DNA of 64,000 nucleotides from an uncultured Bacteroidales bacterium (GTDB lineage: Bacteria > Bacteroidota > Bacteroidia > Bacteroidales > Muribaculaceae). Positions within the stretch are counted from its first letter, which is position 1. The number at the start of each line of letters is the position of its first letter. The notes beneath the pieces were generated by a model, which saw only the letters and a program-made list of their open reading frames with translations, made no database searches and was not told the origin of the DNA. A program made the position numbers and the translations under genes. Positions 18,489-35,429 of this stretch are shown piece by piece. The stretch covers positions 248,001-312,000 of the forward strand of contig CADAZN010000001.1 of assembly GCA_902792435.1 (NCBI GenBank). Reading direction: 5' to 3'.

Positions 18489-20576
18489 TTATTTTTTCTT
18501 GCGGCGCGGTTTTTTGGATTGCTGTTGCTTGCGCATTTGCTTGGCAATGTCGCGGTATTCGTCGGCAACGTCGTCGAGCCCTATTTTATCATATACTCTG
18601 GCTAGGGCGAGAACAGGCTCGATGGCAGTGCGTGAGGCGCGTGTCGCGCGTTTGTAGAGCTTGACAGCCTCGGTTATGTCCTTTTCCTTCTCTCTTATAG
18701 TGGCCAAAGCCATAAGGGCTTCGTAGCAGTTTTTATTATTGCTGAGAATTTCGTTGAGCTGGTTTTCGGCCATATCGGTTTCCCCTATCGCTTCCAACAG
18801 ACGAGCCTTTCCTAGCATTGCTGGCACATAGTGCTCGCTGAGGCGCAATGCCTTGTTATAGTTGGCAAGTGCCGACTTCACAGCGATCTCGTCGAGTCGA
18901 GGCTTAGCGCTGCCATAGGCGACTTCATCTTCCTGCGCCAGCTGACCCATTCCCAGAGATTGGTCTCCCATCGCAGTGAACTCAGCAGCCAGGTCGTTGA
19001 GCTTCTTGTTTTGTGCATCGATAACATCCTCCAAGTTCTGAATCTTGTCCTTCAATTGATTGAACTTGTTAAACTTGACCTTTATGAGCCGCTTGACAAC
19101 AGGATTAGTGATCACGTTGTGAATCTCCATAGCCTGAATGAAGCAATCGACACATCTTGAGAAGTCGTCATGCTCAAATGCTATCGACGCCATTGCATAG
19201 AGCCCGTTGGCCTTCTCAACCAGCATTGCATCGTTGATAACGGCTTGATTGTTAAACTGCCTACTGAAATCAACAATAGCTGTATTGACAATAATATCTC
19301 GCTCGGACAACGGCTTTAACAGCGTGATGCCCTCGAGCGAAGTGCATCGCGACAAGGCTACATAGGTTTGACCGCTCGAGAACGCACCACCAGCAAAGTC
19401 AATGACGATGTTGTTGAACGTGAGTCCTTGACTCTTGTGCACGGTGAGCGCCCAAGCCAGCTTGATGGGATATTGCCTGAAAGTGCCTACCACATTCTCA
19501 ACAACTTTTTTCTCTTTCTCGTCATAAGAATACTGCACGTTTTCCCAAACTTCCTGTTCCAGCACATAGCTTCCGCCATTCTCAAGTTCCACAACAATGC
19601 CATCTTCGTCAACAGTCAGCACTTTTCCCAATGTGCCATTCACCCATCGGCCTTCCTTGTCGTTGCGAATAAAAATCACCTGCGCCCCTCGCTTGAGAGT
19701 GAGTTCCTTGCTTGTGGGGAGATCGTTGTCGGGGAAGACATCGGTCACAACTCCAGTAAAGGTATACTCAGGAGTTTCCAATGCCTGCATGTGAGCATCG
19801 TTGATTGAGTCGACCGTATCGCGACGCGTGGCGAGAGTCATTACAAACTTCTCGTCCACTTCCTTGTAATCGGCATCATATTGACTGTTAAGCAGCTGAA
19901 TGTCGCTCTTGCTAGCGTGGCTTACTCTCACCCTGTCAAGGAGCGCGATAAAGCTACTATCTGTCTGCCGGTAAATCTTGCGCAACTCAATAGGAATAAG
20001 TCCTAATCGTCCAAACACCTTGGCATTAAAGAAAAAGAACTGATTGTAGTATCGTCGCAGGATGTCGCGCATGTCGCGAGTGACAACTGGCTCAAGCTGA
20101 AAGATGTCGCCCACAAAAAGCAGTTGCTTGCCACCAAAAGGCTCGCGCATATTGCCTGAATAAATCCTCAACACCTTGTCGATGAAATCGATAATGTCGC
20201 AACGCACCATTGAAATCTCGTCGATAATAATGAGCTGCAACTTCTTGATGAGCTTAACCTTTTGAGCCGAATAACGCAATGTCTTGCGGATGCGACGTGG
20301 GGAGAAATCGGGGTCATCGGGTAGCAGAGGCTTGAACGGAATCTTGAAAAACGAGTGCATCGTCTGGCCTCCCACGTTCACAGCAGCGATGCCAGTAGGC
20401 GCTAGTACCACGTGCTCCTTATTGGTATTGGCACAGATATACTTTAGAAAAGTGCTTTTACCCGTACCAGCCTTGCCCGTGAGAAATACCGACCGACGAG
20501 TGTTGCGAATCAAGTTCCAGGCATTCTGGAACTCGAGGTTGTCAAGGTCGATATTTTCAAGATTAACGATGCTCAT
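18489..20576 (-). CDS. PIF1/RecD2-like DNA helicase with C-terminal TPR region
   Basis: A 695-residue superfamily 1 helicase. Walker A is GKAGTGKST at residues 34-42, Walker B is IIIDEISMV, and the late motif AWALTVHKSQGLTFNNIVID followed by YVALSRCTSLEG is the helicase C-terminal signature. Residues about 455-680 contain tetratricopeptide-like repeats (NYNKALRLSEHYVPAMLGKARLLE; YEALMALATIREKE), an unusual addition suggesting protein partners. The protein ends in a basic tail (KKPRRKKK). It probably unwinds DNA or RNA-DNA at replication or repair sites; the exact role is unknown. Monocistronic, with its own consensus promoter. Confidence 0.9.
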   Translation of the reverse strand: MSIVNLENIDLDNLEFQNAWNLIRNTRRSVFLTGKAGTGKSTFLKYICANTNKEHVVLAPTGIAAVNVGGQTMHSFFKIPFKPLLPDDPDFSPRRIRKTLRYSAQKVKLIKKLQLIIIDEISMVRCDIIDFIDKVLRIYSGNMREPFGGKQLLFVGDIFQLEPVVTRDMRDILRRYYNQFFFFNAKVFGRLGLIPIELRKIYRQTDSSFIALLDRVRVSHASKSDIQLLNSQYDADYKEVDEKFVMTLATRRDTVDSINDAHMQALETPEYTFTGVVTDVFPDNDLPTSKELTLKRGAQVIFIRNDKEGRWVNGTLGKVLTVDEDGIVVELENGGSYVLEQEVWENVQYSYDEKEKKVVENVVGTFRQYPIKLAWALTVHKSQGLTFNNIVIDFAGGAFSSGQTYVALSRCTSLEGITLLKPLSERDIIVNTAIVDFSRQFNNQAVINDAMLVEKANGLYAMASIAFEHDDFSRCVDCFIQAMEIHNVITNPVVKRLIKVKFNKFNQLKDKIQNLEDVIDAQNKKLNDLAAEFTAMGDQSLGMGQLAQEDEVAYGSAKPRLDEIAVKSALANYNKALRLSEHYVPAMLGKARLLEAIGETDMAENQLNEILSNNKNCYEALMALATIREKEKDITEAVKLYKRATRASRTAIEPVLALARVYDKIGLDDVADEYRDIAKQMRKQQQSKKPRRKKK

Positions 20577-22329: not shown

Positions 22330-23499
22330 TTAACGACGTCCGCCATGGCTACCGCCGCCTCCGCGACTGCCGCCACCTGAGAAGCCACCGCCTCCACCGT
22401 GACTGCCGCCTGAGAAACCACCACTGCTACGGCCGCCTGAGAAGCCACCGCTGCTGCGGCTGCCACCTGAGTAGCCACCGGTGCTGCGGCTGCCACCTGA
22501 GTAACCACCTGTGCTACGGCTGCCTGAGTAGGTGCGTGGAGTAGATGGTGTGCCATAAACACCTGTTGAGGTAGAACCGCCAGAAGTGCGTCCACCACCA
22601 ATAGAGCCACGAGAAGTGCGTCCACCGGGTCGCATTGTAGAGGTGCGGCCAGTGTTGCCACCATAGGTGCTAGCAGTGCCAATATTGCCGTGGTTGATAG
22701 GACGGTCGCCACGATTCATGCTACGTCCATTGATGCCACGACCAGGAGCACTTGCATAACCATGACCAGTGTTGCCACGATCTCCATGATAGTTCATACC
22801 TGGACGGCGACCGCGTACACCACCCTGGTAACGTCCACCATGGGCATATCCACCGTTATACCAGCCATTGTGCCAGCCACTATGCCAACCACTATTCCAG
22901 CCATACCAGCCGCCCCAAGGACGTCCCCAGTAAGACCATGGGTGATAGCGATAACCGCCATACCATCCCCAATCATACCAGCTGCTGTAGTACCAAGGGC
23001 TGCTATACCAACCCCAGCCCCAGCTGTACCATGGGTCATAGTAGGCCGAACGCCATCCCCATCCCCAAGATGGTCCCCATCCCCAAGTGGTACCAACGAT
23101 TAGGTTGACTGTTGGAGTGTTGTCAAAGTAATATTCGATAAGATCGGGGTCGTTAGAGCGAATCACGATTTCAGGATTGTGATAACGCTCAATGCGACGA
23201 GTGTTGGCAAATGCCTCGTCTTCAACATAAACGGTGTCATCTTCGGCGTAATAACGGTCGGTGCGACGGTTATACTCATCGATGTCACGTCCGTTAACAA
23301 CTCCATTTAAAGGAGTTACCGTTGTCGTCATCTCGCCGTAATAAGTGTTAGGCATAGTTGACTTACGAGTCACTTTAACCTTTGTCGTGCTTGGTTCAGA
23401 ACTGCCATCGTAATAGATGTCGTCCTCATAGTTTTGTGCCATGGCGCATCCACAACCGAGCAACATGGCAGCAATAAGAGACAAAAATTTGTAGTTCAT
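22330..23499 (-). CDS. Secreted Trp/Gly/Tyr-rich protein with Gly-Ser-Arg repeat tail
   Basis: A 389-residue exported protein of unknown function. The signal peptide ends AMA-Q or, alternatively, at a lipobox-like LLGC. Residues about 30-135 are an ordinary acidic region (AEDDTVYVEDEAFANTRRIERYHNPEIVI); about 140-230 are dominated by Trp, Gly and Tyr (WGWGPSWGWGW, WYSSPWYYSSWYDWGW); the rest is Gly/Arg/Ser-rich, ending in GGYSGGSRST-type repeats. Such composition suggests a disordered, aromatic-rich cell-surface or envelope protein. It is transcribed with the FadL-like gene 45 bases downstream. Confidence 0.78.
   Translation of the reverse strand: MNYKFLSLIAAMLLGCGCAMAQNYEDDIYYDGSSEPSTTKVKVTRKSTMPNTYYGEMTTTVTPLNGVVNGRDIDEYNRRTDRYYAEDDTVYVEDEAFANTRRIERYHNPEIVIRSNDPDLIEYYFDNTPTVNLIVGTTWGWGPSWGWGWRSAYYDPWYSWGWGWYSSPWYYSSWYDWGWYGGYRYHPWSYWGRPWGGWYGWNSGWHSGWHNGWYNGGYAHGGRYQGGVRGRRPGMNYHGDRGNTGHGYASAPGRGINGRSMNRGDRPINHGNIGTASTYGGNTGRTSTMRPGGRTSRGSIGGGRTSGGSTSTGVYGTPSTPRTYSGSRSTGGYSGGSRSTGGYSGGSRSSGGFSGGRSSGGFSGGSHGGGGGFSGGGSRGGGGSHGGRR
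22333..22530 (-). repeat. Tandem 30-base repeats encoding GGYSGGSRST-like units
   Basis: The 3' end of the Trp/Gly-rich gene consists of near-identical 30-base units that decay into shorter Gly/Ser/His units toward the stop, a pattern made by recent in-frame duplication. Confidence 0.85.
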
Positions 23500-23830: not shown

Positions 23831-24658
23831 ATGAAGCTTGGAGAATATAATAAGTTAATGATTAACCGGTTTGTTGATTTTGGTGCATACCTAATTGATG
23901 AACAAGGAAATGAAGTGCTGCTGCCAAAACGATATTTGAGCGGCGAAGAAGAGCTTGATGACTATCTCGAGGTCTTTGTATATAACGATTCAGAGAATCG
24001 CCCTGTGGCAACCACCGAGCGACCATTCGCTACTGTTGGGCAATTCTGCCTGATGAGAGTAAAAGCGGTGAACGCCATTGGTGCTTTTCTTGACTGGGGC
24101 CTTGTTGCCAAAGATTTGCTGGTGCCATTCCGCGAACAGCGCGTGAGGATGCAGGCTGGTCGCAGCTACATAGTCTATGTCTATCTTGATCCAAGCAGTG
24201 AGCGCATTGTGGCAAGCGCAAAGCTTGACAAGTTCCTAGGCAACACTCTCCCCGACTACTATCATCGCCAAAAAGTTGACGTGCTAATCACACAGCAACT
24301 TGAGATTGGCTACCGTGTGATTCTTGATGGGAAATTTTGGGGCATGATTTATAATAACGAGCTCTACCAGCAGGTCAATATTGGTGAACATCACATTGGC
24401 TTTATCAAGCAGGTGCGCGATGATGGCAAAATTGATGTCACTTTAGCCAAAATAGAGAAAATGCGCATTGATGATGTTGCCGACGATATTCTCAACTACT
24501 TGCAACAAAACGGAGGCTCAATGGCGCTAAACGACAAGTCGTCACCCGAGGAGATTCTGCGCACTTTCAACTGCAGCAAGAAAGATTTCAAGAAAGCTCT
24601 GGGACTTCTCTATAAGCAGCACAAAGTATCACTGGGCGACAAGGTGACTCTCGTTTAG
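23831..24658 (+). CDS. cvfB: CvfB/YitL-family S1 RNA-binding protein
   Basis: A 275-residue cytoplasmic protein of three S1-like OB folds and a C-terminal winged helix. The opening LGEYNKLMINRFVDFGAYLIDEQGNEVLLPKRYLSG, the second S1 domain (AVNAIGAFLDWGLVAKDLLVPFREQ) and the closing SPEEILRTFNCSKKDFKKALGLLYKQHKV fit the CvfB family. Members bind RNA and influence virulence factor expression in Staphylococcus; here a general RNA-binding role is all that can be said. Monocistronic, with a bidirectional terminator 25 bases after the stop. Confidence 0.92.
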   Translation: MKLGEYNKLMINRFVDFGAYLIDEQGNEVLLPKRYLSGEEELDDYLEVFVYNDSENRPVATTERPFATVGQFCLMRVKAVNAIGAFLDWGLVAKDLLVPFREQRVRMQAGRSYIVYVYLDPSSERIVASAKLDKFLGNTLPDYYHRQKVDVLITQQLEIGYRVILDGKFWGMIYNNELYQQVNIGEHHIGFIKQVRDDGKIDVTLAKIEKMRIDDVADDILNYLQQNGGSMALNDKSSPEEILRTFNCSKKDFKKALGLLYKQHKVSLGDKVTLV

Positions 24659-24683
24659 AAAGAACATCGATGAATTAAAACAC

Positions 24684-24720
24684 AAAGAACCAGTGTCATG
24701 TGGCACTGGTTCTTTATTTA
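24684..24720. terminator. Bidirectional terminator between cvfB and the cohesin-like gene
   Basis: AAAGAACCAGTG (24684-24695) pairs perfectly with CACTGGTTCTTT (24704-24715); T-rich tracts occur on both strands. Confidence 0.92.
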
Positions 24721-24742: not shown

Positions 24743-27484
24743 CTACTCACCCATCAGGATGTTGTAGATTACCGTTACATCGGCACTGGTGATTGAGCCG
24801 TCGCCGTTGACGTCGCTAGTAGCGATGAATGTTTCGTCGCCGCTAAGGAGATAGTTGTAAAGTGCAGTGATATCGGCACTTGTCACCACTCCGTCGCAGT
24901 TCACATCACCATAGACATGGTCACTGCCCTTGACAACTGTAACAACCACAACAAAGTCAGGGACAGAGATTTCGGTGAGCGCATCGGCAGTAGTCATCGT
25001 CACATTCTTCACCGTGAACTGGGTGGTTCCAGTAAAGCTTTCAATGGCAGCCATGTCGATGTTCATGATAGCACCGCTATTACCTACGAAATCGGATGTT
25101 GGGAAGCTCACCGCAACAATGCGAATGTCACCATTAGCCTTTGGATTGGCTATGACATAATGATTATCGCTCATTCGATCAGTGAGTTGAATACTATAAT
25201 CGCCATTGTCGGCTTGAGGAATAGAAAGCTCTGAAGGCAATGCAATATCAAATTGTACTGCAGCAATGTTGGTAATCTCGTTATCCATCACTACTGGCAC
25301 ACTCACGGTGTTACCGGCTTGAATGCTGAAGTCGTCGATGTAGAGAGTATCAACTGGCACATAAGGTCCGCTTGCAGTAACCACAACTGCAAAGTCATCG
25401 ATATTGATGTCCTCAGCATCGGTCTTGAGCACCACATTCTTCACGTTAATTACAGCAGAGCCGGTAAATTCCCTCACAGCATTGACTTTCAAGAACATAA
25501 TGTTCCCATCGTCACCAGTAAATGCGGCAACAGGATTACTCGATTCCTCAACGTGCAACAATAAGCCTTGCTGGGTAATGGTCACCATGTGCCCATTGGC
25601 ACGCTCTCCAAGCCTTGCTTGGCTAGCGACTGATAACTCTTGAGGCACTTCAAGGTCAAATTCAACGGCATTAACCTCAACGGTCTCGTTGGTGAGCACT
25701 ACAGGTACTTGAGTAGAGCGCCCTGGTGCAATAGTGAAATCGCTGATAGAGAGATTGTCGCTTGGAACATATACGCCATTGGCTGTGACATTCACATCAA
25801 AGTCATCAATCAAAGTCTCGACCTCGTCGGCACTCGTTAAAACAACATCGGTGGCATGGATTGTTGCTGTCCCTGAAAAGTTGCGGCTAGCGGTGACATT
25901 GATATACATCACCTCGCCAGAGTTTCCCGAGAAATTGGCTACTGGGTAGCTAAAAGCGGCAATTGACACGATGTTTCCATTAGTGTTAGCCATCACCTGG
26001 TGGCTCTCAGTCTTGCGATCGCTAAGTGTTACGCCATGAGCGGTTAAGCCATCAGGCATCTCCAACTTGATCTGGAAACCAGCAACAGGTGTAGCCTCAT
26101 TGTCCATAATCACCGGCACTTGAAGGGTTTGTCCAGGGGTAATCTCAAAATCGTTGATATAGAATAGATTCTCTGGCACAAACACTCCATCGGCAGTGAC
26201 TGTAACATCAAAATTGTCGAGAGTTGTAACATCACTGTTAGGCTCCAGCAAGCGAACATTGCTCACATTGATTACAGCCTGACCTTCAAAGGTGCGGTAG
26301 GCAGCAACCTCGATGTTGAGAACAGCGCCCGAGGTGCCTGTAAAGAGGCGGCCATACTTACCCTTAACCTCCACCTTATAGCTATTATCGCTAAGTGCAG
26401 TGATATTCAGGTTGTGATTAGGCGCACGATCGGTAAGCTCGAAGGCATCATCAGCGACTGTCAGTCCCTCGGGAATGGTCATCTCAAAACTGATGCCGCT
26501 AAACTGAGTCACCTCATTCTCCAGCAACACTGGCATGATTTTAGTCTTGCCTGGCTTAACTGAGAAGTCCTCGATAATCAGATGATCGCTTGGGACATAT
26601 ACGCCATTGGCGGTAACGTTAACATCAAAGTTATCAATAGGGCTCTCGTGAGCGTCACTCGTAGAGAGCACGATATTACAGAACGAAATCACAGCACTTC
26701 CAGTAAATGACTTGCTAGCCGTGAAATCAATGTAGAGTATATCGCCACTATCGCCGCTAAAGTCGGCTGTGGGGAAACCAAATGCCACCACGCTCCAATG
26801 ATCACCATTGTAGTTAGCAACCAATTGGTGAGTCTCGCCCTTGCGGTCGCTAAGGGTAAACGAGCTGGCAGTTGTAGTAATTCCTGAAGGCAAATACATG
26901 TCAAACTGGAAACCTGCTATTGTGCTAGCATTGTCAAGAACCACAGGCACCCGCAAAGCAGTTCCTGGGGCAATCTCAAAATCGTTCATATAGAACTCAT
27001 TGCCCAGAACAATAAACCCTTGAGCTGTTACGGTTACTGCAATATCGGGGTGGCTATGTTCATGTGCGTCGGCAGTGGTGAGTGCAATGTTCTTCACGTT
27101 GATAACCGCTTGACCTTCAAAGCCAGGAGCGGCCACTACATCGATAGTGAGCACTGCCCCACTCTGCCCAGTGAAATTGGTGGCAGGGAAGCTGAACGCC
27201 ATCACCGTCGTGTGGTCGCCGTTAACATTCGTCATGAGTTGGTGCGAACTTGATGCACGCTCACCCAGCTTGAACCCACCCTCGGCTACGCTTAGTCCCG
27301 TAGGCATATAAAGGTCAAATTGGAAGGCGGCAAAGTCAGTATCGGGATTATCGAGCAAGACAGGCACAGTAATCGTGTCGCCCGCTTGAATCGAGAAATC
27401 GTCGATGCGCAACTCATTAGCCGCCTGAGCATGTAAAGCTCCAGCCACCAACATTAAAGTTAAAATATGAAACAGCTTTTTCAT
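24743..27484 (-). CDS. Secreted scaffoldin-like protein: six cohesin-like modules plus dockerin
   Basis: A 913-residue exported protein. A signal peptide (1 to about 21, LHAQA) is followed by six modules of 136-148 residues (about 22-160, 161-299, 300-438, 439-575, 576-711, 712-859). Each opens with (I)-x-DF-x-I-x-PG-x-T-x-x-VPV-x-x-DN, then a F(Q/E)(F/I)D-x-x-(L/M)P-x-GL strand, a D/ERx(S/A)-x-(S/N)H turn and an FTG-x-(S/D)G-x-(I/V) strand, the order of strands seen in cohesins. Residues 860-913 are a type I dockerin with two calcium loops (DVNCDGVVTSADI and DVNGDGSITSADV). Cohesins bind dockerins in cellulosomes; here partners are unknown. No sorting tail is visible. Last gene of a three-gene operon. 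Confidence 0.85.
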   Translation of the reverse strand: MKKLFHILTLMLVAGALHAQAANELRIDDFSIQAGDTITVPVLLDNPDTDFAAFQFDLYMPTGLSVAEGGFKLGERASSSHQLMTNVNGDHTTVMAFSFPATNFTGQSGAVLTIDVVAAPGFEGQAVINVKNIALTTADAHEHSHPDIAVTVTAQGFIVLGNEFYMNDFEIAPGTALRVPVVLDNASTIAGFQFDMYLPSGITTTASSFTLSDRKGETHQLVANYNGDHWSVVAFGFPTADFSGDSGDILYIDFTASKSFTGSAVISFCNIVLSTSDAHESPIDNFDVNVTANGVYVPSDHLIIEDFSVKPGKTKIMPVLLENEVTQFSGISFEMTIPEGLTVADDAFELTDRAPNHNLNITALSDNSYKVEVKGKYGRLFTGTSGAVLNIEVAAYRTFEGQAVINVSNVRLLEPNSDVTTLDNFDVTVTADGVFVPENLFYINDFEITPGQTLQVPVIMDNEATPVAGFQIKLEMPDGLTAHGVTLSDRKTESHQVMANTNGNIVSIAAFSYPVANFSGNSGEVMYINVTASRNFSGTATIHATDVVLTSADEVETLIDDFDVNVTANGVYVPSDNLSISDFTIAPGRSTQVPVVLTNETVEVNAVEFDLEVPQELSVASQARLGERANGHMVTITQQGLLLHVEESSNPVAAFTGDDGNIMFLKVNAVREFTGSAVINVKNVVLKTDAEDINIDDFAVVVTASGPYVPVDTLYIDDFSIQAGNTVSVPVVMDNEITNIAAVQFDIALPSELSIPQADNGDYSIQLTDRMSDNHYVIANPKANGDIRIVAVSFPTSDFVGNSGAIMNIDMAAIESFTGTTQFTVKNVTMTTADALTEISVPDFVVVVTVVKGSDHVYGDVNCDGVVTSADITALYNYLLSGDETFIATSDVNGDGSITSADVTVIYNILMGE
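24908..27421 (-). repeat. Six tandem cohesin-like modules (protein-level repeat)
   Basis: Six units of about 410-445 bases in the scaffoldin-like gene. Units 1 and 6 and units 2 and 4 look most alike at the start of each module (DDFSIQAG; NDFEIAPG/NDFEITPG); unit 3 and unit 5 are the most diverged. Confidence 0.8.
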
Positions 27485-27524
27485 ATCTAAAAGCGCTTTT
27501 CAAATTTCAAATAAGGAGTGCCAA

Positions 27525-29246
27525 TTATTTTACAAGCACCTTCTTGCCATTAATCACATAAACACCAGTAGGGAGCCCCTTAGTAGCCTCGGATGGATTA
27601 ACACCTTGACGCACTAGAACGCCCTTCATGTCATAGACATCAACACCCTTGGCATCACTGCCAACTTGAGAGATTGCAGTAACAACAGGAGCATTGGCAG
27701 TAACATTAGGCAGCACGCTCTCCACCTCATTGCTCTGAGTGAAGAAGATGTCGCTGATGATTATGTTCTCGTAAGCATCGAGTGAAGCATTGGCCTTAAC
27801 CTTGAGTGTGATAATTGCATCGCTACCAGTAACAATCTCATCATTGTTGATAGAGAAACCTAGCAAACGAATTGAACCATCGGGGTTAGCACCAGTCATC
27901 AACGTGTGAGAAGCGGCACGACCTGTGAGCTCTGCTCCCTCAAGTGTGAGGCCTTGTGGCAAAGTCACATCCATCTGGAAGCCAGCATAAGGCGTAGCAT
28001 TATCGAGATTTATCGCAATAGTGCCAATTGCTGGGTCGTAGTCGCCGATGCTCAACACATCGTTGGTAGCAGCCTTTGGAGCCATCAAAGCAGGCGCCGA
28101 ACTGTTGCCCACTGCGATATTGGCGATTGCAATTAGGTCGGTGATGTTGATTGAGCCGCTTGCATTCACATCGGCAGCTTCCTCAACAAACACCTCGGGA
28201 GTGATGCCCACAATATAATTGGCAACGCACATAACGTCGGTGACATTAACTTTCTTATCGGAGTTAACATCACCTGGAATGGGTTGTTCTTCAAATGGCA
28301 ATGTGCCAGTTTCAAGGACAATCTTAGCATTACCACCAATGAATCCCATACCGTCGCGAACAGGGTCGGCAAGTGTGATATTACCCATATCAAACACTGT
28401 CTCACTGGTCACTACAGCTTGAGCATCTTGATTAGTAAGCACATCGGCATAACCATCGGCGTTCTGCTCCCAGTTGTAGAGACCAAAATGATAGGTGATA
28501 CCGGTCTGGTTGTCCTTATAATCGGCAAGTACCTGATTGGGGTTTACCCATGTGTTCTTTTCCTCACCAGGTGTAAACTCAGGCACAAACCCATAATCAA
28601 GGAAATTGTAGATAGTCACCTTATTATTATAGTAGTAGAGATAAACAGGGAACGATGCCACCTCGCCTGTGTTATAAACGTGATCACTACTGTCGAAGTC
28701 GACCTCATCGTAGGTCATAGTAGCATTGCTAGCAATGAACTGCGTGAACATGCCGTTGTCGTACATCGCACCAGCGTTCACATAGGTGTCATTGTCAGGG
28801 TCATAATAGATTAGAGCCAAGTTCCATGTGGTAGAAATTGTGAAACCACTAGAGTTGACACGGCCCGAAAGAGTGGTGTTCAGCACTGTGTTAACATTGC
28901 TATTGTCAACTACCGATTGAGCAACAACATAGAGATAGCATGTGTATTGCTCATATTGGTAAGTATAAACACTTTGAGGCAAGAACTGGATGGTATTAGC
29001 ACCCCAATTCACGCTGAAAGTGAGGTCGCTACCTTGAGCGAAATAGTTAGACACCGTCACGCGACTGGTGCCTCCTGTGTAGGCCATCGACACGCGGTTA
29101 GAGCCAATGGTGCCACCCGTTTGGATGTCACGATCCATCTCGATGTTGATGCTTGCGAGCTTCTCGGCAGTGAATGCCGAAGCCGCCCACGACAGATTTG
29201 TCGTGGCAAACGCAAGCAATAAGATTGCAAAAAGATGTTTTTTCAT
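27525..29246 (-). CDS. Secreted protein with beta-rich domain, dockerin, cohesin-like module and sorting tail
   Basis: A 573-residue exported protein. Signal peptide 1 to about 22; a beta-rich domain (about 23-320) whose repeated SNYFAQGSDLTFSVNWGANTI and YNFLDYGFVPEF parts are reminiscent of lipocalin-like folds; a dockerin at 326-380 (DVNSDKKVNVTDV and DVNASGSINITDL); a single cohesin-like module at 397-519 (IGDYDPAIGTIAINLDN, FQMDVTLPQGLTL, GRAASHTLM); and a C-terminal tail at 526-573 (VDVYDMKGVLVRQG, GLPTGVYVINGKKVLVK) of the type IX sorting kind. Carrying both binding partners in one chain is unusual. It lies 24 bases after the 641-residue gene and 40 before the scaffoldin-like gene, so it is in the same operon. 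Confidence 0.83.
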   Translation of the reverse strand: MKKHLFAILLLAFATTNLSWAASAFTAEKLASINIEMDRDIQTGGTIGSNRVSMAYTGGTSRVTVSNYFAQGSDLTFSVNWGANTIQFLPQSVYTYQYEQYTCYLYVVAQSVVDNSNVNTVLNTTLSGRVNSSGFTISTTWNLALIYYDPDNDTYVNAGAMYDNGMFTQFIASNATMTYDEVDFDSSDHVYNTGEVASFPVYLYYYNNKVTIYNFLDYGFVPEFTPGEEKNTWVNPNQVLADYKDNQTGITYHFGLYNWEQNADGYADVLTNQDAQAVVTSETVFDMGNITLADPVRDGMGFIGGNAKIVLETGTLPFEEQPIPGDVNSDKKVNVTDVMCVANYIVGITPEVFVEEAADVNASGSINITDLIAIANIAVGNSSAPALMAPKAATNDVLSIGDYDPAIGTIAINLDNATPYAGFQMDVTLPQGLTLEGAELTGRAASHTLMTGANPDGSIRLLGFSINNDEIVTGSDAIITLKVKANASLDAYENIIISDIFFTQSNEVESVLPNVTANAPVVTAISQVGSDAKGVDVYDMKGVLVRQGVNPSEATKGLPTGVYVINGKKVLVK

Positions 29247-29270
29247 TGTTTTGATGTATTTATGATTTGG

Positions 29271-31196
29271 TTATTTATAAAGTTTCTTAGATGTGGTGCA
29301 ATTACCATTGTCATAAGTAGTAACAACAATGTTCACACCATTGAACGGAGTAGCGCTCTCAATGCCTAGCAAGTTGTAATACTTAATGTCAACCACTTTG
29401 CCAGTATTCTCAACAGCGTTGATTGCAGTGGGCACGTCTATCAAGCGTAATGGATAAACAACATACTCGGCCGAAAGGTCACCAGTAACAGGAGAGCTCT
29501 GGTTGCCGTCTTTAAGAAGCTGAGCGTTACTAGTTGCCGGTGCCATTTTTCTCAATATTGCGTCAAACTCATAGACATATCCATCATTAGGATTCCCTGC
29601 AGGAAAATAATCCCAGTTAACCTTGATGCCACCTGAAAGGTTATCGACATTGCCGTCGCTCATAGTATAGAAATTGCCATCGGTAGCATTATAGCATGCC
29701 CATGTTATGAAAGCATATTCCTGCACCTTTGGAGCCACGAAGAAGAAATGGCTAGTTGGCACATAATAATCCTCGTTAAAACTTGGCATGATATATATGT
29801 TGGGCTCGTAAAGGCTGGCATTGCCTACCACTGGAGTCGAAGTCACTGCGATAGTGGGGTTAACCTTGTCAACAAGTTTGCCAGTAATGCTCTTGCCCTT
29901 GATGATCTTACCTAAATAGTTGTCGGGATCAGAAACACCAGTGAGCATCACCCAGTTGCTTTGGTCAAAATCAGCTACTGGCTGCAGTTTAGTGTTACCC
30001 ATATACTCAGCTTCAATTCTACCAAGGAAGTCGATTTGGCCATCGCTAATATGTGATGGGTACTTATATTTTCCCATATCTTTTGCGAAGAGCACGTTGC
30101 CCAAAGTCACGGGATAGTTATTATAAGAGGGGCCAAGTCGGCAAGAACCATTAACATAATCCCATCCACCCTGGTCGTTATTATTTGCCAAACCACTAGT
30201 GAGACTGAAATAGTTCTTGTTGTTGTCACGGCCATCAAAATTTACAAAAGCACTGTAATGCACGCCATCGGTAGTCTCCATCGGCTGACCAACAGTAGGA
30301 TTCCAATCGTTGTTATTTGCTTGGCCAAGTACATAGTAAGTAGGATATGAACCATTGTTTACAAAGCCTGTAATATCCTGAGAGCATTGCGAAACTGTGA
30401 GTGCATTAGTGCTAAGATCCAAGTCAAGTTTATAACGACCCTTTTCAATCATAAAGGCGTTTTGATTCCGGCTCACCCCCATAGGAGCACTCAGCACGCC
30501 GTCAACAGTAGCAACGCCCACAAGGTCGTCATAAACCTCATAATCCTCGCCAACTGTTCCATCGTTGACAATATCGACGAGATCGGTTTTGATAATTGTC
30601 ATCTTTGAGCGTTCAAAATACTCAACCACACGAGAACTACTGGGTGTATACCAATAAGTACCTTGAGCAATCACACATCCCCAAGGGTTATCAAGTGTTA
30701 TCTCTCCTTTTTCTAAATCAATTGTTCCATTACAATCAGTTCCTCCAGAATAAGTATAGTAGACTCTCTCATTATAGATAGTGGTAACTCCTTGTGGATA
30801 ATAGACCATGTGAGCAACAAGAGCATGTTGATAGCCGGTCCAACTAAATTTTGTCGTTTTGCCTAAATAGGCAACTCGCCATGTGAAAGATGCTTTTGTA
30901 TCACTCTCCCAAGTAAGTGATGTAACACTTGCTCCATAATTAATAGGCAAATTCACAACTGCCGAAGAAGTATTTACAATATCAGTATTCCTATAAAAGT
31001 TATTAAATGTCAATTGCTGGGTTGATGAATCCCAAACAACAGTTACGGTATTAGTCCTCACAACTTGACCATTTCGATAGTCTTCTTGCAAGAAATCCTG
31101 AGTAAATGATGCTGGTTGTGCATTTGCAATATTTGTCGCAAATGTTGTGAGCAAAGCGACAAATAAAGATAAAGATAAGGTAAAGAATTTTCTCAT
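29271..31196 (-). CDS. Large secreted paralogue with inserted carbohydrate-binding-like region
   Basis: A 641-residue exported protein, unrecognised as a whole. The signal peptide (ending NANA) is followed by QPASFTQDFLQEDYRNGQVV, nearly identical to the start of the 270-residue protein at 31346-32158, and the likeness continues to about residue 195 (CNGTIDLEKGEITLDNPWGC). Residues about 196-590 have no counterpart there; YYVLGQANNNDWNP and TTDGVHYSAFVNFDG resemble SusE/SusF-type starch-binding modules, so carbohydrate binding is possible. The last 50 residues (KYYNLLGIESATPFNGVNIVV) match the tail of the paralogue and look like a sorting domain. First gene of the operon. Confidence 0.78.
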   Translation of the reverse strand: MRKFFTLSLSLFVALLTTFATNIANAQPASFTQDFLQEDYRNGQVVRTNTVTVVWDSSTQQLTFNNFYRNTDIVNTSSAVVNLPINYGASVTSLTWESDTKASFTWRVAYLGKTTKFSWTGYQHALVAHMVYYPQGVTTIYNERVYYTYSGGTDCNGTIDLEKGEITLDNPWGCVIAQGTYWYTPSSSRVVEYFERSKMTIIKTDLVDIVNDGTVGEDYEVYDDLVGVATVDGVLSAPMGVSRNQNAFMIEKGRYKLDLDLSTNALTVSQCSQDITGFVNNGSYPTYYVLGQANNNDWNPTVGQPMETTDGVHYSAFVNFDGRDNNKNYFSLTSGLANNNDQGGWDYVNGSCRLGPSYNNYPVTLGNVLFAKDMGKYKYPSHISDGQIDFLGRIEAEYMGNTKLQPVADFDQSNWVMLTGVSDPDNYLGKIIKGKSITGKLVDKVNPTIAVTSTPVVGNASLYEPNIYIMPSFNEDYYVPTSHFFFVAPKVQEYAFITWACYNATDGNFYTMSDGNVDNLSGGIKVNWDYFPAGNPNDGYVYEFDAILRKMAPATSNAQLLKDGNQSSPVTGDLSAEYVVYPLRLIDVPTAINAVENTGKVVDIKYYNLLGIESATPFNGVNIVVTTYDNGNCTTSKKLYK

Positions 31197-31219
31197 AAAT
31201 GTATAAAAATACGAATTGC

Positions 31220-31227
31220 CAAATTTA
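31220..31227 (-). promoter_or_regulatory. Candidate -7 box of the cohesin/dockerin operon
   Basis: TAAATTTG on the minus strand, about 24 bases before the 641-residue gene. The -33 region reads TTTTC, a partial match. Confidence 0.5.
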
Positions 31228-31282
31228 AATTAGAGAAAAACATGAAAACTCTTCATATTTATACCCCCTATATCAGCAATAA

Positions 31283-31328
31283 GAGGGTGTGCCAAAATGC
31301 AAGCTAACCGGCATTTCGAAACACCCTC
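31283..31328 (-). terminator. Terminator of the 270-residue paralogue gene
   Basis: Two nested stems: GAGGGTGT (31283-31290) with ACACCCTC (31321-31328), and AAATGC (31295-31300) with GCATTT (31311-31316). It separates the small paralogue from the downstream operon. Confidence 0.75.
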
Positions 31329-31345
31329 CTATTGATGCAAATATA

Positions 31346-32158
31346 CTATCTCATTAACTGCTTTGAAACAGTCTTTTGACCGTTGCTGTACTCCTTAACG
31401 ACGATGTTCAAGCCATTGAAAGGCTGAGTCGACTCTACGCCAAGAGTGTTGTAGTAACGAGTGTTCATTAGTTGAGCGCCAGCGTTGACATCCTCGATGC
31501 CAGTTGAAGTGCGTTCCATGAGAGAGTTCTCAAAATACTCAATAACGATAGATGCACTCATGTTGTTCCAGTTGTTATTACCCACAACGCATCCCCAAGG
31601 ATCGGTGATTTCGATTGTTCCGGCAGCAACATCGATAGTGCCGTGGCAATCTTGTCCACCATAATAGGCATAATAACTACCGGGATCAACATTATTATTG
31701 ATTGGGTCATAAATTCTTACAGGATTTGAAACATGCTGGAAGCGAGCCACAACAGCTGCCTTATAGGTGCGGAAGGAGGAATAAGAGAAAGGTAGATTGG
31801 CAAACACATCGCTTTGGCCCATGGAGCAGGCGCGCCATGTGAAATTAGCCTTTGTGTCGCTCACCCAAGTCAAGGTTGTTGGGCTTGAAGTATCGGTTGC
31901 ATAAGATGGGAAAACGAGGTTAATGACTTGATCATTCACCATATCGTTAGCATAAAAATTGTTGAATGTCAACACACCTGCATCCTTGTCCCAAACCACA
32001 TTGAGAGTGTTAGTCCTAACAACATTGCCATCACGAAAGTCTTGTTGATGGAAATTGCTATTAAACGATGCGGGCTGTGCATTTGCTTTAAAGCCCGTGT
32101 TACCCAATGCAACAAGCAAAAGGGTCATAATTCCTGATAGAGTAATTAATCTTTTCAT
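31346..32158 (-). CDS. Small secreted paralogue with sorting tail
   Basis: A 270-residue exported protein of unknown function. Signal peptide 1 to about 27 (FKANA), then QPASFNSNFHQQDFRDGNVV and a beta-rich domain to about residue 215 containing VVWDKDAGVLTFNNFYANDM and DTKANFTWRAC. It shares this domain and the C-terminal tail (RYYNTLGVESTQPFNGLNIVV, then lysine/glutamine-rich end) with the 641-residue protein but lacks the central 390 residues. It has its own promoter and terminator, so it is a separate unit beside the operon. The pair looks like a gene duplication followed by domain insertion or loss. Confidence 0.8.
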   Translation of the reverse strand: MKRLITLSGIMTLLLVALGNTGFKANAQPASFNSNFHQQDFRDGNVVRTNTLNVVWDKDAGVLTFNNFYANDMVNDQVINLVFPSYATDTSSPTTLTWVSDTKANFTWRACSMGQSDVFANLPFSYSSFRTYKAAVVARFQHVSNPVRIYDPINNNVDPGSYYAYYGGQDCHGTIDVAAGTIEITDPWGCVVGNNNWNNMSASIVIEYFENSLMERTSTGIEDVNAGAQLMNTRYYNTLGVESTQPFNGLNIVVKEYSNGQKTVSKQLMR

Positions 32159-33524: not shown

Positions 33525-35429
33525 ATGAAAAAGACATTATTTGCTCTTCTTGCCCTGACTTGTGTAATCGATGTTTGGGCATGGAAGCCTATCTTTATTG
33601 GCCATCGCGGCAGCTACATGGGCGTGATGAACACTGTTGAAGCCTACAACAACGGCGTAGACCATTACGGATATCAAGGGCTTGAGTGCGATGTGCGCGT
33701 CACAGCCGACGGTTACTATGTGATTAGTCACGACGAGACCACCAACGCGGTGGGTGGCAACCTCACCGTAGCCAATGCCACCCTGGCCGAACTACAGGCC
33801 GAGACCTACACGCAAACTCGCGGCGGTGTGACCTATACAGGCCACATATGCACAGTTGCCGAATATCTTGACATCTGCGCAGAAAAAAACGTGATTCCAG
33901 TTGTTGAACTCAAATGGACAACAGGAATCAACAACAACGACATGAGCAAGTTCCCCGGCTTGGCAGCACTAATTGAGGAAAAAGGCTTGACAAACAAAGC
34001 CATAATCCTCACGTCGATGCGCAATTCGCTGGAATATGTGCGCACCAACTTTCCTGCCCTCAAATGCCAATTCTTGTGCAACAGCAACTGGGCGACCCAC
34101 TTTGAGTGGATTGTGCAATGGGGCCTGATGCCAAGCATCCAAGCTGGATGCCTTGACAAATATACAGTGAAAAAGTTTCATGACAAAGGTCTTGAAGTTG
34201 CTGTTTGGACAGTAAACTCACTGGCGAACTATAAGCTTTATGGCGAAATGGGAGTGGCAATGATTACTTGCGACTACCTCATGCCTAGTGAGATGCCTGA
34301 ACTTGAAGACATCGACTGGAATTCTATTGTCGAGCCACAGGAGCCTCTTGAAGTTGTCGTTGACACATTGTTCTCTTATACTCGTGAAAAAGGAAACCTC
34401 CCCGCAAATTTTCCCTCGGGGCTTGATGCCGACGCCTCGCCCTACAAATCGGCACAGCAAGCCGCAATATCAAATGATGGTGTGTTCTATGCCAACAACT
34501 ACACCACAAGCACACTTGTGATACTCAAGCCCGACGGAACAATAAGCGAGGCACCAGGCACCAGCAGCCATGGTATATGCTTCGACGGCGCAGGAAACCT
34601 AATACAACGCAACGACGGTGTCACCAAGAATCCATGTTCTATCCTTATCTACCCTGGCGGTGACATTAGCACCACACCCATTGATGTAGAATTTGAACTT
34701 GACGAAGAAGGCCAAACCAACTTCATAAGCGCCATTGGCGATGTGATGAGCGAAGAAGGTGGTTATGTTTACCATTATCAGAACGGTAGATCTTATGTTT
34801 CCCTCGTCAAAATTGTTAATGGCGAACTTGAAGACATCGAAACGACCGATGCCGTATCATTTGCCGGCTCAACAGCTGGAGTGATTTATCCCATCGACAA
34901 CGACCCTTATCATTTCATTTATCAAGTGAGAAACCAAGGCTACAACCTCTACAACGGCAGTGACAAGGGCAAGTACATCCCCGGTTCGCTCACCACAACT
35001 CCACCCAACAGCAACTCGTCGGTGGGTGGTGCCTATTTTGTTCTTGATGGTCACGAGATGTTTCTCTATACCAGCGGAACAAACTACAATGGGGGCTTCA
35101 CGATTCGCGACATGAGTGCCGAAGCTGCAGCGGTAGCCACAATTCCGCCCATGGGCTCAGGAGGCTATTCGGCCAACCCATCGGTGGGCTCATTCTTTAA
35201 CGTGGTACCCGAAAGAGGCAAGAGCGTGATAGTCTATGAATACACAATGGGAAACGGTTATGCTGCCTATCGTGTCCATACCACCGACTATACTGCAATC
35301 GACGGCATTAACGTTGACACCCCTTCTACACAAGACAACAACTACTATGACCTCACAGGCCGCAAGATGAACGGAGGCATACCTTCAGGCATTTACATCC
35401 ATAACGGCAAAAAGGTCATCGTTAGATAA
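33525..35429 (+). CDS. Secreted glycerophosphodiester phosphodiesterase with long C-terminal extension
   Basis: A 634-residue exported enzyme. The signal peptide (1 to about 19) precedes a GDPD TIM barrel to about residue 270 with the catalytic set His27-Arg28 (GHRGS), Glu54 and Asp56 (LECDV) and His69 (ISHDE). It should release glycerol-3-phosphate from deacylated phospholipids or similar diesters. Residues about 290-600 are a beta-rich region with phrases such as VILKPDGTISEAPGTSSHGICFDGAG that suggest a propeller or sensor fold. The protein ends in a sorting-type tail (YYDLTGRKMNGGIPSGIYIHNG), like the secreted proteins in the neighbouring block, so it is probably cell-surface bound. Confidence 0.88.
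   Translation: MKKTLFALLALTCVIDVWAWKPIFIGHRGSYMGVMNTVEAYNNGVDHYGYQGLECDVRVTADGYYVISHDETTNAVGGNLTVANATLAELQAETYTQTRGGVTYTGHICTVAEYLDICAEKNVIPVVELKWTTGINNNDMSKFPGLAALIEEKGLTNKAIILTSMRNSLEYVRTNFPALKCQFLCNSNWATHFEWIVQWGLMPSIQAGCLDKYTVKKFHDKGLEVAVWTVNSLANYKLYGEMGVAMITCDYLMPSEMPELEDIDWNSIVEPQEPLEVVVDTLFSYTREKGNLPANFPSGLDADASPYKSAQQAAISNDGVFYANNYTTSTLVILKPDGTISEAPGTSSHGICFDGAGNLIQRNDGVTKNPCSILIYPGGDISTTPIDVEFELDEEGQTNFISAIGDVMSEEGGYVYHYQNGRSYVSLVKIVNGELEDIETTDAVSFAGSTAGVIYPIDNDPYHFIYQVRNQGYNLYNGSDKGKYIPGSLTTTPPNSNSSVGGAYFVLDGHEMFLYTSGTNYNGGFTIRDMSAEAAAVATIPPMGSGGYSANPSVGSFFNVVPERGKSVIVYEYTMGNGYAAYRVHTTDYTAIDGINVDTPSTQDNNYYDLTGRKMNGGIPSGIYIHNGKKVIVR

Follow-up and report, generated by a model that had tools for sequence, protein, structure and literature searches.

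Analysis of a 64,000-nucleotide stretch (the window) within contig C1 of the genome of an uncultured gut Bacteroidales bacterium (2.96 Mb, 56 contigs, 93% complete) revealed a cluster of four co-oriented genes on the minus strand, at 24743-32158, which encodes a putative cohesin-bearing scaffoldin, a putative surface anchor and two further proteins with similar-looking tails. The open reading frame (ORF) listing places the first three at 24743-27484, 27525-29246 and 29271-31196, with intergenic gaps of 40 and 24 bases as stated in a preliminary description of the locus, and adds a fourth co-oriented gene. The features of the cluster are as follows; the sorting tail is that of the type IX secretion system (T9SS).

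24743..27484, minus strand: ScaA-like scaffoldin (ScaA), 913 aa, with Sec-like signal (heuristic), six cohesin modules and C-terminal dockerin (ORF, repeats, Dockerin_1, predicted fold)
27014..27418, minus strand: cohesin module 1 of ScaA, Pfam Cohesin 25.1 bits (profile, Pfam)
26600..27001, minus strand: cohesin module 2 of ScaA, Pfam Cohesin 21.4 bits, under cut-off (profile, Pfam)
26183..26587, minus strand: cohesin module 3 of ScaA, alone without Pfam hit, aligning with modules 1, 2 and 6 (profile, alignment)
25772..26170, minus strand: cohesin module 4 of ScaA, alone without Pfam Cohesin hit (profile, alignment)
25364..25759, minus strand: cohesin module 5 of ScaA, alone without Pfam hit (profile, alignment)
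24929..25351, minus strand: cohesin module 6 of ScaA, Pfam Cohesin 25.9 bits, modelled with the dockerin (profile, Pfam, predicted fold)
24755..24913, minus strand: C-terminal dockerin of ScaA, cargo class (Pfam, class identities)
27525..29246, minus strand: anchor protein, 573 aa, with N-terminal region, anchor-class dockerin, one cohesin and T9SS type-A-like tail (ORF, Pfam, TIGR04183, fold)
28122..28277, minus strand: anchor-class dockerin of the 573-aa protein (Pfam 2.3e-10, class split)
27687..28061, minus strand: single cohesin of the anchor, without Pfam hit, cohesins leading its fold search (profile, predicted fold)
27549..27680, minus strand: T9SS type-A-like sorting tail of the anchor, below the TIGR04183 cut-off (19.2 bits; 22 bits in the genome search)
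29271..31196, minus strand: secreted protein, 641 aa, with a tail by eye like those of cohesin-dockerin-cohesin anchors of relatives (ORF, tail comparison)
31346..32158, minus strand: 270-aa shortened paralogue of the 641-aa protein, first gene of the cluster (ORF, end identities, relatives)

ScaA consists of six tandem repeats, each approximately 138 aa long, with starts at aa 25, 164, 302, 441, 578 and 714, followed by a Dockerin_1 match at aa 858-910 (E 3e-13), and the six cohesin-like modules plus dockerin previously assigned to this gene were recovered. In the Pfam scan of the whole protein the dockerin is the sole domain over its cut-off, as in a non-catalytic tandem-cohesin scaffoldin, and no carbohydrate-binding module (CBM), the scaffoldin component of cellulosomes, was found at E≤1; ScaA has no T9SS tail. 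The 573-aa anchor carries Dockerin_1 at aa 324-375 (2.3e-10) and one module at about aa 398-517. The dockerin and cohesin-like module claimed for this gene stand, and its sorting tail is matched only under the TIGR04183 cut-off. The 641-aa protein had been called carbohydrate-binding-like, which is unsupported, as no Pfam family was found at E≤0.01; the sorting tail also attributed to it is a likeness by eye to the tails of the cohesin-dockerin-cohesin anchors in the relative loci L196, L198, L199, L202 and L204. The 270-aa gene lies 149 bases upstream of the 641-aa gene, resembles its protein at both ends (43% and 48% identity) and likewise adjoins the cluster in the relative loci L109 and L110. 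Gene order is kept in L109 and L110, and the last three genes are kept in L189; ScaA orthologues of these three loci are 72-83% identical, and the anchor orthologues in relatives 77-88%.

The Pfam Cohesin family (PF00963, curated cut-off 24.1 bits) gave a mixed result, matching three of the seven window modules at E≤1 when these were scanned singly (25.1, 21.4 and 25.9 bits), two of them over the cut-off. Cohesin was absent from the matches of the whole-ScaA scan at E≤1, and dismissing cohesins on that scan alone would have been wrong. In a genome-wide PF00963 search the ScaA modules exceeded the cut-off (24.4 bits singly, 37.9 with neighbours added), and one protein of alignment group A3, by genome search the C22 protein described below, matched Pfam Cohesin at 3.5e-18. 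When the 15 modules of the source genome were combined in one profile (A5), this retrieved six PDB sequences at E≤1. Cohesins occupy the first five ranks (E 0.009-0.32): four entries named 'putative cellulosomal scaffoldin', and one from Archaeoglobus. Two of these four entries are R. flavefaciens proteins by title (5n5p, 5m2s), and the sixth match is by name no cohesin. In genome G334 the A5 profile found 14 matches and Pfam Cohesin none; therefore Pfam can miss all cohesins of a genome.

Models were made only of natural fused module-dockerin chains. The AlphaFold model of ScaA 708-913 (module 6 and dockerin, 23 sequences) had a predicted local distance difference test score (pLDDT) of 88.7 and a predicted template modelling score (pTM) of 0.72, and all 50 PDB matches listed by Foldseek were cohesins or cohesin-bearing chains by title (best E 7.9e-9, template modelling score on the target 0.77), the cohesin-like modules 2jh2 and 2vo8 of Clostridium perfringens being among the close folds. 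For the dockerin-cohesin-tail part of the anchor (22 sequences; pLDDT 84.2, pTM 0.73) cohesins came first and made up 38 of the 50 listed matches, one bearing just the title 'protein-protein interaction module', and the other 12 were integrins, pilins or a cellulase/CBM chain. Structure prediction thus favours cohesin, cleanly for ScaA module 6 and less so for the anchor module, and an unrelated immunoglobulin-like fold, the outcome named beforehand as contrary to the scaffoldin interpretation, is not what Foldseek shows. By predicted fold the window modules are cohesins, and it is this prediction that decides over the mixed Pfam scores. In alignment A6 of the modules, all 23 rows share one Gln and one Asp in the third strand, whereas not all 15 rows of A5 do; L109, which is the same genome as L190, was excluded from A6 and from alignment A7. 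The invariant Gln aligns (HMMER) to the strand-3 position that we take to be dockerin-contacting in clostridial type I cohesins.

The dockerin search of the source genome returned 107 matches, some partial or overlapping, of which 99 exceeded the Pfam cut-off (150 of 159 candidates scored), a result strongly in favour of the scaffoldin interpretation. In the fetched stretches our own profiles located dockerins, whole or partial, in 99 distinct ORFs, and 15 cohesin modules in seven. Ninety-six of the dockerin proteins, anchors and scaffolds included, were scanned with Pfam, the remainder being short or partial (L076; L082, 89 aa; L084, 104 aa); PF00404 was found in 94 of the 96 at E≤1e-3. Aspartates of the calcium loop are invariant at columns 2, 6, 13, 33 and 44 in all 88 aligned near-full dockerins, those shorter than 50 residues being omitted from these counts, and the two F-hands of cargo dockerins share a mean identity of 64.5% (81 of 82 cargo copies). 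A two-fold symmetry of the dockerin halves kept in this way agrees with the dual mode of binding that clostridial dockerins show. Judged by sequence, the dockerins are canonical type I, with two predicted calcium-binding F-hand repeats and Asp ligands. They stand at the protein end (at most 11 residues following) in 71 of the 99 ORFs, begin at or before residue 90 in 16 and are internal in 12. Of the 96 ORFs whose start could be read, 92 showed a Sec-like signal; a lipobox-like motif was seen in five, both by our own heuristic and not SignalP. Two classes were distinguished: the 82 cargo dockerins have a mean identity of 59% to one another and 62.5% to two scaffold dockerins (those of ScaA and the C22 scaffold), and the five anchor dockerins share 37% identity with cargo dockerins and 36% among themselves.

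The Pfam families found in the 96 dockerin proteins, all counts being lower bounds, include leucine-rich repeats (LRR_5, at least 18), C10 peptidase (at least 8), CotH (at least 8), FGE-sulfatase (at least 7), CBM26 (at least 5), alpha-amylase (at least 4), S8 (at least 3) and M6 (at least 2); at E≤1e-3 the lists of groups A1, A2 and A3 omit 1, 11 and 3 families. Single GH53, endonuclease and PAP2 proteins, and amidases, also bear dockerins. As in cellulosomes, dockerin-borne enzymes (peptidases, amylases, amidases, GH53) are therefore encoded in the same genome. No GH5, GH9, GH48, GH10 or GH11 is among the families listed for these 96 of 99 dockerin ORFs, the A2 list being complete at E≤1e-10. 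A 33.5-kb contig, G000:C38 (L087, L088), carries 10 dockerin ORFs, several side by side, and forms a dockerin-cargo island; its families were tallied only within a group of 23.

The seven cohesin ORFs of the source genome comprise four dockerin-cohesin-tail anchors and three scaffolds, and each scaffold lies beside an anchor. In the C9 set a 1624-aa LRR anchor (dockerin-cohesin, tail by eye) adjoins a 424-aa two-cohesin scaffold ending in a partial dockerin, and in the C22 set a 1457-aa S8 subtilase adjoins a 1132-aa three-cohesin scaffold. This subtilase (L077:1453-5826) is itself anchor-like, with a weak anchor-class dockerin, by eye a diverged cohesin-like stretch, and a sub-cut-off T9SS-like tail. 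The C19 set consists of two tandem dockerin-cohesin-tail anchors whose tails exceed the TIGR04183 cut-off. In 16 of 20 stretches from 16 relatives, chosen among the best A5 hits, a dockerin- and cohesin-bearing anchor adjoined an ORF that carried between one and six cohesins. Of the remaining four, one was a cut contig, one encoded a fused protein, one had a two-cohesin anchor in which our own profile found no dockerin, and that of G039 contained different genes. In G039 (contig C25, L208), which belongs to another Bacteroidales family, the scaffold ORFs of 2466 aa (eight modules) and 1239 aa (five modules) carry by eye T9SS-like tails, and this genome apparently holds a separate version of the cohesin-dockerin system.

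The source genome encodes SprA (sprA, 2718 bits) and PorV (porV, 430 bits) of the T9SS. TIGR04183, the T9SS type A C-terminal domain (CTD) with a curated cut-off of 23 bits, matched 23 sites in the genome at E≤1, of which 12 exceeded the cut-off. The anchor tails scored 19.2 and 22 bits in the window (scan and genome search), 15.4 in C22 and 26.1 and 25.0 in the C19 pair, with no match in C9; most of the cargo, like ScaA, is without such a tail. Pfam scans list no SLH domain for the window, C9 and C22 anchors or in the tallies that include the C19 anchors. A trade-off between dockerins and T9SS tails showed no sign, the tail numbers of the genus being ordinary (8-16 in six genomes vs 0-52 in 93 others, with no more than 52 candidates scored).

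All 37 genus genomes searched with the A5 profile have modules, as do 2 of 24 genomes of other families of the order. In the same 61 genomes dockerins numbered 29-89 per genus genome, most of these counts being lower bounds with at most 87 candidates scored per genome, and 0-2 elsewhere, save in G039 (38, plus 24 module matches). Across 297 genomes of the family, modules were present in 40 of 40 genus genomes and 62 of 257 others, and dockerins in 40 of 40 and 89 of 257. The 257 genomes outside the genus divide into 49 with both, 13 with modules only, 40 with dockerins only and 155 with neither (Fisher p 1.1e-16, kinship ignored), and 85 of the 89 dockerin-bearing ones show only 1-3 dockerins. 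Chance or contamination as the origin of the operon was rejected as unlikely, since gene order is kept in relatives and modules and dockerins occur throughout the genus. The nearest tryptophanyl-tRNA synthetase (TrpRS) records are from uncultured Prevotellaceae, Bacteroidales and Porphyromonadaceae metagenome-assembled genomes (MAGs; 94-97%), the rest mostly from Prevotella, Xylanibacter and Segatella (78-87%); the operon lies beside trpS in two (L109, L110) of 80 TrpRS loci, many of which have short flanks.

The interpretation that we consider probable, at roughly 0.72, is that the products of the operon are the core of a cellulosome-like surface assembly, anchored by way of the T9SS, in a Bacteroidales genus. 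Module and dockerin identity, the predicted cohesin fold, the two dockerin classes, gene order, genus-wide presence and the T9SS genes form its observed or computed basis, and the scaffoldin-like surface assembly first proposed gains support from the fold, the number of dockerin matches and the distribution. The finding is larger than first noted, namely a genus-wide, dockerin-rich, T9SS-linked cohesin system. Physical binding, its stoichiometry, surface location and the crossing of the outer membrane by tail-less dockerin proteins are what we infer. The 573-aa anchor would be exported and fixed to the cell surface through its T9SS-like tail, presenting one cohesin, into which, or into that of another anchor, the C-terminal dockerin of ScaA could plug. 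ScaA would then carry up to six of approximately 90 secreted dockerin-tagged proteins, such as LRR adhesin-like proteins, C10, S8 and M6 peptidases, CotH, FGE-sulfatase-like proteins, alpha-amylases and CBM26 proteins. The calcium-loaded dockerins of the two classes, one of cargo and scaffold and one of anchor, may set the binding partners.

Several results weigh against this interpretation. Cohesin-dockerin binding is here a prediction from sequence and fold, and four of the seven window modules, scanned alone, have no Pfam Cohesin match at E≤1. The anchor tails of the window and C22 fall under the TIGR04183 cut-off and that of C9 was seen by eye only, and the ordinary number of T9SS tails in the genus points the same way. 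One C19 anchor dockerin has cargo-type recognition residues, so that the class split is not clean; moreover, since the ScaA dockerin is of the cargo class, its sequence cannot single out anchor over scaffold cohesins as its target. Outside the genus stand the 40 genomes with dockerins and no modules and the 13 with the reverse. In G061, from another genus of the family, at least 21 dockerins were found but neither A5 nor PF00963 matched a cohesin, and therefore dockerins can abound without any recognisable cohesin; this genome is either a clear counter-example or the bearer of still more divergent cohesins. Finally, two of the four nearest TrpRS relatives, L111 and L112, have full 10-kb flanks without a cohesin.

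Pairwise cohesin-dockerin bridging is known from Clostridium perfringens glycosidases, and the modules could serve in the same way as bridges between secreted proteins, or bind within a chain in the dockerin-cohesin and cohesin-dockerin proteins, without forming a large assembly. In many proteins both modules indeed share a chain, joined by short linkers, nearly all dockerin-bearing family genomes outside the genus have very few dockerins, and the C. perfringens modules are among the close folds; the six tandem cohesins of ScaA and the 99 dockerin matches, however, fit a scaffold better than a bridge, and anchor-scaffold pairs are recurrent in the genus, so this use seems unlikely. Alternatively, the C-terminal dockerin, folded by calcium, might act as a signal for export or retention in place of the T9SS tail, and the cohesins would then have other ligands. 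That the 71 ORFs ending at the dockerin leave no space behind it for such a tail, and that G061 has dockerins without visible cohesins, would agree with this, but the retained two-fold symmetry is that of binding dockerins, modules and dockerins co-occur across genomes, and the 16 dockerins near the start are placed as would suit a docking tag rather than a sorting signal of the C-terminus; we hold it to be improbable.

Least probable, and to our judgement very much so, is that the modules are general beta-sandwich domains, carbohydrate-binding or immunoglobulin-like, and the dockerins calcium-binding spacers, the likeness to cohesins being one of fold only. CBMs and cohesins belong to a common fold superfamily, and the modules without a Pfam match and the integrins, pilins and cellulase/CBM chain among the matches of the anchor model speak for it. 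On the contrary, every listed match of the ScaA module 6 model is a cohesin chain, the A5 sequence profile independently, if weakly, ranks cohesins as its first five PDB hits, and modules and dockerins both occur in all 37 genus genomes.

A wider reading of the T9SS-anchored assembly can be offered tentatively: the dockerin may be a general surface-display tag of a Gram-negative genus for approximately 90 secreted proteins, T9SS tail and dockerin forming a two-tier sorting code. The cargo, mostly tail-less, with many adhesin-like or proteolytic members and none seen to be cellulolytic, would be held by a few tail-bearing cohesin anchors and multi-cohesin scaffolds, which might also carry it out through the T9SS pore. 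About 70 dockerin-ended proteins without a T9SS tail would have to cross the outer membrane.

Compared with known systems, the best reading is that this is not a cellulosome sensu stricto, because the families listed include no cellulase among the cargo, no CBM on the scaffold and no SLH domain on the anchors, and that it is a variant of cohesin-dockerin assemblies that would work like a cellulosome. Ruminococcus is Gram-positive and anchors its cellulosomes by sortase. In the cellulosomes of R. champanellensis, R. flavefaciens and Ruminococcus ERACg_42, as far as the sections of the literature drawn on describe them, scaffoldin dockerins plug into other scaffoldins, and cohesin-dockerin proteins as well as LRR and peptidase dockerin proteins occur as they do here; cellulases, of which none is listed here, are among their cargo. 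Ruminococcus bromii is likewise Gram-positive. Its amylosome is alike, in the portions described, in cohesin-dockerin assembly with amylase cargo and in GH13 with CBM26, and R. bromii Amy proteins are among the PDB matches of the dockerin profile, whereas here amylase domains were found in at least 4 of the 96 scanned dockerin proteins.

A scaffoldin with a surface-attachment CTD has been described in the cellulosome-like complex of Ca. Stygibacter (Cloacimonadota), and therefore T9SS-type anchoring of scaffoldins is no new idea (PMC8542988). The cited sections of that paper describe a single scaffoldin of 3,755 aa, which carries CBM2/CBM3, together with four named enzymes; in contrast, the present multi-cohesin scaffold is tail-less and CBM-less, the tails reside on separate dockerin-cohesin anchors, and 99 dockerin matches and genus-wide presence are found in another phylum. 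Ca. Paraporphyromonas polyenzymogenes is similarly a rumen Bacteroidetes organism that uses the T9SS for large secreted enzymes, multimodular cellulases; in the text cited it is reported without cohesins and dockerins (PMC5831590).

Closer in phylum are the surveys of Bacteroidetes MAGs. More than 12,000 dockerins were reported from a rumen gene catalogue, with no carbohydrate-active enzyme domain in roughly three quarters of the proteins, and Bacteroidetes MAGs had dockerins without recognisable cohesins, which the authors guess to be too distant to recognise (excerpts of PMC7260996). A two-cohesin protein was noted in RUG606, of the Prevotellaceae (PMC5830445, in part), tandem cohesins in bins including the dockerin-rich Bacteroidetes bin 136 (PMC6071333, in part), and both domains in 78 Bacteroidetes UHGG MAGs, a co-presence called surprising and in need of study (PMC12997984, in part). 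In the sections cited these four surveys give domain counts, with no architecture, anchor or cargo analysis; RUG606 is a member of the Prevotellaceae like several of the nearest TrpRS records, and the organisms possibly overlap. The role of dockerins in polysaccharide utilisation loci of rumen Bacteroidetes is given as undefined in the cited portion of PMC7480376. A distinct group of rumen cohesins, which may include the present type, is credited to Bensoussan et al. 2017 in an excerpt of PMC5742341. Searches of open PMC text, outside which most subscription papers lie, yielded domain counts and hints and no description of the present system. Since the modules are divergent cohesins largely missed by Pfam, an A5-type profile may supply the cohesin partner unseen by the rumen surveys, and the partner question is now testable with purified modules, two dockerin classes and named anchors.

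The cluster is flanked by a convergent gene (23831-24658) and by a divergent trpS, named from its sequence by eye. One further feature lies at its 3' end:

24682..24717, no strand assigned: bidirectional terminator-like hairpin of 14 pairs between scaA and the convergent gene (hairpin scan)

Terminator-like sites in the region numbered 5 vs 6.3 in shuffles, with no excess, and promoter-like sites 18 vs 16.8, which is uninformative. Elsewhere in the window, 22330-23499 encodes a 389-aa protein with a signal-like start, a Trp/Tyr/Gly-rich middle, a Gly/Ser-rich tail and no Pfam family at E≤1, and 18489-20576 a RecD-like helicase fused to TPR-like repeats (NCBIfam matches, below cut-offs). The ORF at 33525-35429 encodes a secreted GDPD-family protein that has a long C-terminal extension and, by eye, a T9SS-like tail.

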